Part shown: positions 56,742 to 57,692 of the stretch, one piece after another
Position numbering within the stretch: the stretch's first letter is position 1
How the letters are laid out: every line of letters begins with the position of its first letter
Assembly: GCA_030426955.1 (NCBI GenBank)
Contig: JAUHXS010000002.1
Coordinates: forward strand, 186,001-250,000
Origin: Bacteroidia bacterium
Lineage (GTDB): Bacteria > Bacteroidota > Bacteroidia > Chitinophagales > JAUHXS01
Direction: 5' to 3'
Length of the DNA stretch: 64,000 bases
The notes under the pieces: model-generated
What the model saw: the letters and a program-made list of their open reading frames with translations, nothing else
What the model was told of the DNA's origin: nothing
Database searches by the model: none
Position numbers and translations under genes: made by a program

Positions 56742-56772
56742 TTGATTTTTATTCTTCAAGTTTCTAGCTTTA
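56742..56772 (+). promoter_or_regulatory. Putative promoter of the peptide/oxygenase-like pair
   Basis: TTG at 56742-56744, 20-base spacer and TAGCTTTA at 56765-56772, seven of eight matches to TAnnTTTG. It lies 31 bases before the peptide ATG. The gap 56627-56803 otherwise shows only AT-rich sequence. Confidence 0.4.
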
Positions 56773-56803: not shown

Positions 56804-56962
56804 ATGAGTGTAATAGCAAAAATGAAGCAAGAAAAATCCATCAAAGTAATGACTAATGACGAATGTAACTTACTAGGGGCTGGTATAGAGTCTGAAGCTG
56901 GAATTTTATTTATGGTAGAGTCTGATTTAATTGCTGAGATAATAAAGAAAAAAGGGCAGTAA
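56804..56962 (+). CDS. Small 52-residue peptide, possible double-glycine-leader precursor
   Basis: ATG at 56804, TAA ending at 56962. Residues 16-27, MTNDECNLLGAG, fit the leader consensus L-S-x2-E-L-x2-I-x-G-G when G27 is the last leader residue: M/T at -12/-11, Glu at -8, Cys at -7, Leu at -4, Ala-Gly at -2/-1. The rest (IESEAGILFMVESDLIAEII then KKKGQ) would be a 25-residue core that is acidic and hydrophobic and has no Cys. It is followed 40 bases later by a putative iron oxygenase-like gene. No transporter or C39 peptidase is near, which weakens a bacteriocin/RiPP reading. I do not recognise the sequence otherwise. Confidence 0.5.
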   Translation: MSVIAKMKQEKSIKVMTNDECNLLGAGIESEAGILFMVESDLIAEIIKKKGQ

Positions 56963-57002
56963 GGCTAATCTGAAAAATCAACCCTAATGAAGTTTTGATA
57001 CT

Positions 57003-57692
57003 ATGTTAGTTAAAACCATTAGACCAGAACTTTTTCATTTAAAAACAAGGGTAAGTATCAACGTAAAAAAAATACTTACCCTTATTAACGATATAATAGA
57101 AAAAAGTTCGCCTGATAACTTTCCTGTTATATTATTCTCCTCAGAATCTAATTATAAGGATATTGTAAATCGTATATATAATTATTCTCCGAAGGATGAA
57201 AATGATCTTTATGAATGGTTGCGAAAAATCTCAACTTCTGAGCAAGTTGGTATGCAGATAGCTCAGATTCAAAAATGGAATGAGGAGCTGCATGAAGAAA
57301 TAAGTTTATTAACAGATAAGATCAAGAAAAAAGTTTCTTTAGATGATTGCTACTTGTCTTCCAGTATTATTGCTGGTAATTATGGTTATACTCCTTATGG
57401 AGTTCATAAAGATAATGACGAATTTGTAGCAGCAATACATTATAATTTGGGTCCTGGAGAGAAGCATATGGCATTATGGAAGCCGGATTTGTTTTATCAA
57501 TTAACAGGGAGTTGGAAACCATATGATAGACCAATTGACATTATTGACCATGCAGATATATATACTTATAAGCAGGACGAAGGCTTTATCTTACCATATG
57601 ATGATTACCACATAGGTTTTGCAGATGAATTCTCGATTAGTATTGTGTCAATAGTATATGAGAAAAAAACAACTCAGACTAACTCTAGATAG
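57003..57692 (+). CDS. Putative cupin-like/2OG-Fe(II) oxygenase
   Basis: 229 residues, not recognised as a named family. The C-terminal half has a pattern like the JmjC/cupin-8 or 2-oxoglutarate oxygenases: YTPYGVHKDNDEF with H135 and D137 (HxD), strand AAIHYNLGPGEKHMALW, then GFILPYDDYHIGFADEFSIS with H203, giving the HxD...H iron triad in the expected order. The N-terminal ~110 residues are mixed helical and have no recognised motif. It follows the 52-residue peptide gene by 40 bases and overlaps the next (convergent) gene by 8 bases. Function as a peptide-modifying enzyme is inference. Confidence 0.5.
   Translation: MLVKTIRPELFHLKTRVSINVKKILTLINDIIEKSSPDNFPVILFSSESNYKDIVNRIYNYSPKDENDLYEWLRKISTSEQVGMQIAQIQKWNEELHEEISLLTDKIKKKVSLDDCYLSSSIIAGNYGYTPYGVHKDNDEFVAAIHYNLGPGEKHMALWKPDLFYQLTGSWKPYDRPIDIIDHADIYTYKQDEGFILPYDDYHIGFADEFSISIVSIVYEKKTTQTNSR

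Follow-up and report, generated by a model that had tools for sequence, protein, structure and literature searches.

A single-domain JmjC-type oxygenase gene beside a candidate peptide gene, and its RiPP-associated relatives in Bacteroidota

Introduction

Two neighbouring open reading frames on the same strand, of 52 and 229 codons, raise the question of whether an oxygenase and the small peptide encoded just before it may form a peptide-modifying unit. They lie in a 64 kb stretch of Bacteroidota DNA that was analysed as a whole (hereafter, the window), and an initial annotation read them as a possible minimal hydroxylated-peptide system. JmjC oxygenases acting on ribosomal peptides have been characterised only recently (PbsQ and BipG, 2025), and for their bacterial relatives with RRE-like domains the literature offers no more than brief mentions. 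Both the assignment of the enzyme and the overall idea were found to be good, while the specific claim for this peptide is unproven.

Organization of the Locus

The promoter-like site and the two genes are located in the window as follows:

56742..56772, plus strand: Bacteroidota-type promoter-like site TTG-N20-TAGCTTTA, read directly from the sequence
56804..56962, plus strand: open reading frame of a 52-aa peptide, candidate substrate or precursor (MSVIAKMKQEKSIKVMTNDECNLLGAG-IESEAGILFMVESDLIAEIIKKKGQ), ATG start, from the ORF call
57003..57692, plus strand: gene for a 229-aa single-domain JmjC-type Fe(II)/2-oxoglutarate oxygenase-like protein, ATG start, assigned by homology, AlphaFold and structural matches

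The two frames are 40 bases apart on the same strand, as had been described, and the promoter-like site, also reported initially, ends about 31 bases 5' of the peptide ATG. Plus-strand sites of this type number two in 64 kb with the exact spacing and six with a spacing of 19-21; because there are just six, coincidence is unlikely to account for the one lying in front of this ATG; this is an indication and not proof. A Sigma-70 consensus site was not found near the peptide, and no Rfam RNA elements were found in the region. The neighbouring genes are of the housekeeping type (aminotransferase, dehydrogenase E1, DUF1573, FKBP isomerase, PLP enzyme, urocanase, globin, and MarR-type regulator). 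Exporter, protease, and receptor genes adjoining the pair were not found, in agreement with the earlier remark that no transporter or protease is near, and no OMP_b-brl_3 gene was detected near it.

The 52-Codon Open Reading Frame

The 52-codon frame sits in a 376-base gap between genes. Frames of at least 52 codons arose in 36 of 3000 dinucleotide shuffles of this gap when only ATG starts were counted and in 82 of 3000 when ATG, GTG, and TTG were allowed, so its length is modestly above chance expectation. The codon score was 0.126 versus a long-gene mean of 0.142, and 12% of spurious frames scored equally well. Because the length is slightly above chance and the codon use is gene-like, the frame is likely, but unproven, to be a real gene. 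Toxin-antitoxin and regulatory-uORF readings were also considered, and no positive evidence was obtained for either.

The proposed processing site within the peptide is the following:

56876..56884, plus strand: Gly-Ala-Gly, residues 25-27, proposed double-glycine-like processing site, read directly from the sequence

The initial annotation had fitted a double-glycine leader consensus to the peptide at seven key positions. With the classical residue classes (no Cys at -7, no Ala at -2), the peptide fits five of the seven, and two adjacent registers, ending in LLGA and LLGAG, tie at this value. Scores as high or higher were reached by 21% of the peptide's own shuffles and by 29 of the 218 small ORFs of the window, the 52-mer counted in. 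With the relaxed classes (Cys at -7, Ala at -2), 117 of 100,000 shuffles match and the 52-mer is the sole match among the 218 ORFs; these relaxations were picked post hoc, after the peptide had been seen. A matrix built from 24 real leaders beside enzyme relatives gave the 52-mer -6.5 bits, a value equalled by 38% of shuffles, and at this score the family-type leader FLxxxxLSPLEexkixGG was not found adjoining the window enzyme. A GG-leader profile, which recovers both Zobellia peptides, had no match over the whole source genome. Since the unrelaxed match is common in shuffles, the relaxations are post hoc, and the matrix score is poor, the double-glycine leader has no independent statistical support and is not better than chance.

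No convincing paralog of the 52-mer occurs in its own genome, and searches of this genome, of plasmids, and of the neighbours of all enzyme homologs returned nothing convincing. None of the 206 candidate peptides beside enzyme relatives resembled it. Conservation of the peptide next to homologs of the enzyme was therefore not observed; this test is weak, since none of the collections searched yielded a close relative of the window enzyme.

Fold and Family of the Oxygenase

The residues of the predicted active site are encoded as follows:

57405..57413, plus strand: H135-x-D137, predicted iron ligands, H135 being invariant in 47 aligned sequences
57462..57464, plus strand: K154, candidate 2-oxoglutarate-binding residue in an invariant column, its role suggested by known JmjC enzymes
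57609..57611, plus strand: H203, third predicted iron ligand, invariant among 47 aligned sequences

Searches of Pfam, NCBIfam, and PDB sequences with the window proteins gave no match above cut-off; because no Pfam family reaches cut-off on the enzyme, its JmjC assignment rests on its homologs and fold. In a tblastn search against plasmids, most of the enzyme aligned with the N-terminal half of proteins labelled cupin or hypothetical, with E values down to 3e-13. A single-protein scan of genome contigs yielded no relative; an alignment-based scan of 85,000 species genomes, with a three-sequence alignment as the query, recovered 54 loci with relatives, nearly all in Bacteroidota. No relative was detected in phage and viral contigs, and no close relative in any collection searched. 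The family-level search covered one genome, the source's family being a singleton in the searched set; at the order level, family members were present in 3 of 398 genomes. The identity between the window enzyme and its relatives is about 20-27%. JmjC_2 (PF08007) was found above cut-off in relatives, 15 of 33 of which match at E 0.01.

The AlphaFold model of the window enzyme, built with 42 sequences, reached a pLDDT of 90.1 and a pTM of 0.86. Its structural matches (YxbC of B. subtilis, NO66, FIH, YcfD, and JMJD5) are all of the JmjC type, with YxbC as the best Foldseek match (1.5e-10) and VIA Z scores of 13.9 for YcfD and 13.8 for JMJD5. The model thus has the double-stranded beta-helix of the JmjC/cupin fold. 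The window enzyme preserves twelve columns that are uniform across the 42 aligned sequences, H135, K154, and H203 among them; the family-invariant residues retained are T130, P131, G133, H135, G150, K154, W159, P198, H203, and S211, and of the most conserved family columns, it keeps 17 of 32. By the family profile, the motif around H203 aligns with the P..YWH catalytic-histidine motif of JMJD5/KDM8. The position of K154 presumably corresponds to the lysine that binds 2-oxoglutarate in FIH and JMJD5. The HxD/E...H triad is represented by H135-x-D137 and H203, at the positions given in the initial annotation, and the predicted iron site has intact triad residues in a JmjC-type fold. The JmjC/cupin-like oxygenase proposed at the outset is thus supported by homology and structure prediction. 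With confidence for the fold, the window enzyme can be assigned to the JmjC-type Fe/2OG oxygenases, and it is predicted to be catalytically active.

Peptide Clusters of the Relatives

The intact relatives examined have two domains, a JmjC domain and a C-terminal winged-helix/RRE-like domain, the latter comprising strands at 344-374 and helices at 377-418 in the Zobellia model. The best full-length structural match of these two-domain relatives is to the YcfD-type ribosomal oxygenases, which also carry a C-terminal winged helix. Fusions of RRE-like domains to JmjC (PF08007) were noted in PMC12710340, together with bacterial homologs found in RiPP-like contexts; the earlier statement that the usual RiPP rules miss such a system is in part out of date.

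In the phylogenetic tree, the Bacteroidota relatives split into two groups. Double-glycine leader peptides, usually located just upstream, were present in 21 of the 26 loci of one group (the peptide-associated clade) and in 0 of the 27 loci of the other. The leader pattern search retrieved 33 peptides in 19 clade loci, with 2 further loci recognised by eye; the pattern was tuned on clade peptides, yet applied equally to both groups. A few of the loci nearly duplicate each other, and some of the stretches are short. The C39-peptidase ABC exporter was found in 20 of 26 clade loci versus 0 of 27 other loci, and an OMP_b-brl_3 outer-membrane beta-barrel protein in 17 of 26 clade loci. Examples of the leaders are MKNKSFNAKSFLNAKTLSPLDESKIRGG (Chryseobacterium) and MKNSNPEKFLDTQELSALENQTLTGG (Zobellia), and the cores of the clade peptides are Lys/Val-repeat, Lys/Glu-rich, or poly-Gln. 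The initial annotation's association of such enzymes with small precursor peptides is borne out by these relatives, and because GG peptides and C39 exporters occur in most clade loci, the idea of a peptide-modifying unit appears right for the family, judging from gene content.

The OMP_b-brl_3 protein, about 790 aa long (for example, L021 5088-7466), is encoded alongside the precursor, the JmjC protein, and the exporter, and it is possible that it serves as a receptor or an outer-membrane passage for the product. Five loci (L024, L030, L033, L034, and L046) encode double-glycine precursors upstream of the JmjC gene with a core that is mostly poly-glutamine (7-17 Gln); each contains the two-domain JmjC oxygenase, the C39 exporter, and an extra protein of about 124 aa without a known family. 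In Aquimarina agarilytica (L026 9805-12715), the JmjC gene has its own GG peptide, a second GG peptide carries a CC motif, and ATP-grasp-like and SPASM-domain genes adjoin the JmjC gene; the locus looks like a mixed RiPP cluster. A JmjC copy on a Bergeyella plasmid (L007 7766-8985) is split by frameshifts into several short ORFs.

Among the more distant homologs, Nostoc and Streptomyces plasmids carry peptides of 44-57 aa with repeat cores (GLKTGVRPD, LKVGVRPDA, KLGMRPG) beside the JmjC homolog, and a further group of loci lies in Pantoea, Klebsiella, and Xenorhabdus:

L003 7645-7818, L004 7569-7703, L005 5243-5392, and L009 5154-5294: repeat-core peptides of Nostoc/Streptomyces plasmids
L002 6258-10971, L008 6239-10947, and L038 7518-8885: loci of Pantoea, Klebsiella, and Xenorhabdus

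The Nostoc and Streptomyces loci also hold genes for a DUF3865-type protein and the GFA family, and those of Streptomyces additionally contain an amidinotransferase and an arginine-deiminase-family gene. In these homologs, HxG replaces HxD, a feature of the halogenases of the Fe/2OG group. On the Pantoea and Klebsiella plasmids, a 57-aa peptide ending in HIDIGGGGLGRDRRDTGH is encoded beside an arginase-family gene, together with two cupin/JmjC genes and GNAT and MFS genes; in Xenorhabdus, a 52-aa peptide ending in AGPRRDIGPRTHV precedes the JmjC homolog. These three may represent an arginine-modifying RiPP type.

The Window Locus Measured against the Family

The window enzyme is the sole single-domain member seen among the relatives. 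Its ORF stops at residue 229, where an opposite-strand gene ends, so that the C-terminal winged-helix/RRE-like domain is missing, and it is also without the N-terminal 20-30 or so residues of the relatives. In the tree, it was placed with the peptide-associated clade and L017 (support 93/88.8; 93 in the other tree), although an alternative placement was not rejected (AU test p 0.204) and its terminal branch spans about 4 changes per site. At L017, which is gammaproteobacterial, a 59-aa peptide ORF is accompanied by genes for a TldD-type protease, an ABC transporter, and an ATP-grasp protein.

The enzyme may instead be a stand-alone protein hydroxylase that targets a cellular protein, for example a ribosomal one, the 52-codon ORF in its 5' region having arisen by chance or being a small gene of no relevance to it. 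YcfD and NO66 modify ribosomal proteins, and hydroxylases of ribosomal and other proteins are among the closest solved structures. Neither a GG-leader peptide nor a C39 exporter accompanies the 27 relatives that fall outside the peptide clade, and the 52-mer has no homolog, its ORF length by itself reaching only 1-3%. Against this, the tree ties the window protein, if only weakly, to the peptide-associated clade, and members of the family are rare in the order, as a housekeeping hydroxylase would not be; we regard such a role as somewhat unlikely.

The missing domain, the lost N-terminal residues, the long branch, and the many conserved columns lost would also suit a decaying RiPP locus, in which an ancestral cluster of precursor, JmjC-RRE, and C39 genes had shed its exporter, leader consensus, and RRE domain, leaving the pair as a remnant. 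The Gly-Ala-Gly site, GG-like but degenerate, and the lack of a nearby exporter fit this scenario. However, none of the invariant catalytic positions has been lost, the reading frame is uninterrupted with gene-like codon use, and the model is confident; unconstrained drift should have hit the triad as well, which makes decay improbable.

The window locus has no C39-peptidase ABC exporter, and the genome's single one lies on another contig. It exceeds the Pfam cut-off at G000:C9:49140 (L016 9626-13192, contig 9) and has behind it a 453-aa gene resembling a membrane-fusion partner; a recognisable GG peptide beside it was not found. Since the enzyme's relatives pair with such exporters, a full secreted-peptide system acting in trans may be envisaged, in which the 52-mer would be a genuine double-glycine precursor, hydroxylated by the JmjC protein and cleaved and exported by this transporter. 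However, the profile that recovers both Zobellia peptides detects no family-type leader anywhere in the genome, the processing site is GA or AG rather than GG, and the exporter is far away. This version is very unlikely.

Proposed Explanation

The preferred reading, to which we give a probability of roughly 0.4, is that of a lone JmjC relative of RiPP oxygenases whose most likely substrate is the upstream 52-mer and whose reaction would be the oxidation of a peptide side chain. The product of 57003-57692 would depend on Fe(II) and 2-oxoglutarate and act on a side chain of a peptide or protein by hydroxylation or some other oxidation. It probably descends from the two-domain, RiPP-associated family with JmjC and RRE-like winged-helix domains, the second domain having been lost. 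The translated product of the 52-codon gene immediately upstream would be its most likely substrate, and the two genes probably share a promoter. The product might also be exported, the sole C39 exporter being on another contig.

The fold, the iron-triad residues, and the homology to RiPP-associated JmjC proteins were established by computation. That the oxygenase modifies the adjacent 52-mer in this bacterium is only plausible, because the leader is at chance level, the 52-mer is unlike the partner peptides of the family, the RRE-like domain is absent, the enzyme has diverged strongly, and the exporter is encoded on a different contig. The 40-base gap, the promoter-like site before the peptide, the gene-like codon use, and the tree place on the RiPP side speak for this explanation; the chance-level leader, the dissimilarity to partner peptides, the absent RRE-like domain, the long branch, the 17 of 32 conserved columns, and the lack of an adjacent exporter speak against it. 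The peptide-modification unit of the initial annotation accordingly stands for the family, with its GG peptides and C39 exporters, and is only plausible for the window, where the 52-mer differs from its counterparts and the divergent enzyme is without an RRE.

The JmjC domains of FIH and JMJD5 are able to bind peptides directly. A minimal two-gene unit may be considered, in which the lone JmjC protein would recognise and hydroxylate the neighbouring 52-mer directly, without an RRE, exporter, or protease. It would derive from a little-described Bacteroidota RiPP class with GG leaders, Lys/Val-repeat or poly-Gln cores, a JmjC-RRE oxygenase, a C39 exporter, and OMP_b-brl_3. We hold this proposal to be rather doubtful.

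If true, the pair would illustrate to what size such a system can shrink; the interest of the locus lies mostly in the family to which it leads. The relatives outline a recurrent Bacteroidota cluster of precursor, JmjC-RRE oxygenase, C39 exporter, and outer-membrane beta-barrel protein, with unusual low-complexity cores, which is directly testable in a laboratory host.

Comparison with Known Systems

PbsQ and BipG are JmjC/cupin-like ornithine hydroxylases acting on biphenomycin RiPP precursors (PMC12257519, PMC12707348). The proposed window enzyme would resemble them as a JmjC-type Fe/2OG hydroxylase acting on a precursor from the same cluster, a likeness in mode of action. The biphenomycin clusters also hold an MNIO, an arginase, a B12 radical SAM enzyme, and a protease, none of which is near the window genes. 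The JmjC_2-RRE proteins (PMC12710340; the Bacteroidota clade with GG leaders) share with the window pair a homologous JmjC domain and, preceding it on the same strand, a gene for a small peptide, whereas the window protein lacks their winged-helix/RRE-like domain and has no family-type GG leader, C39 exporter, or OMP_b-brl_3 protein nearby. YxbC of B. subtilis (1vrb, 7zcc), the best Foldseek match, is 12-15% identical to the window protein and larger, at about 340 aa. With the PF08007 ribosomal oxygenases YcfD/RoxA, NO66, and MINA53, the window protein has the JmjC fold in common at about 12% identity in structural alignments; their plan of JmjC plus winged helix is shared by the two-domain relatives, whereas the window protein is single-domain.
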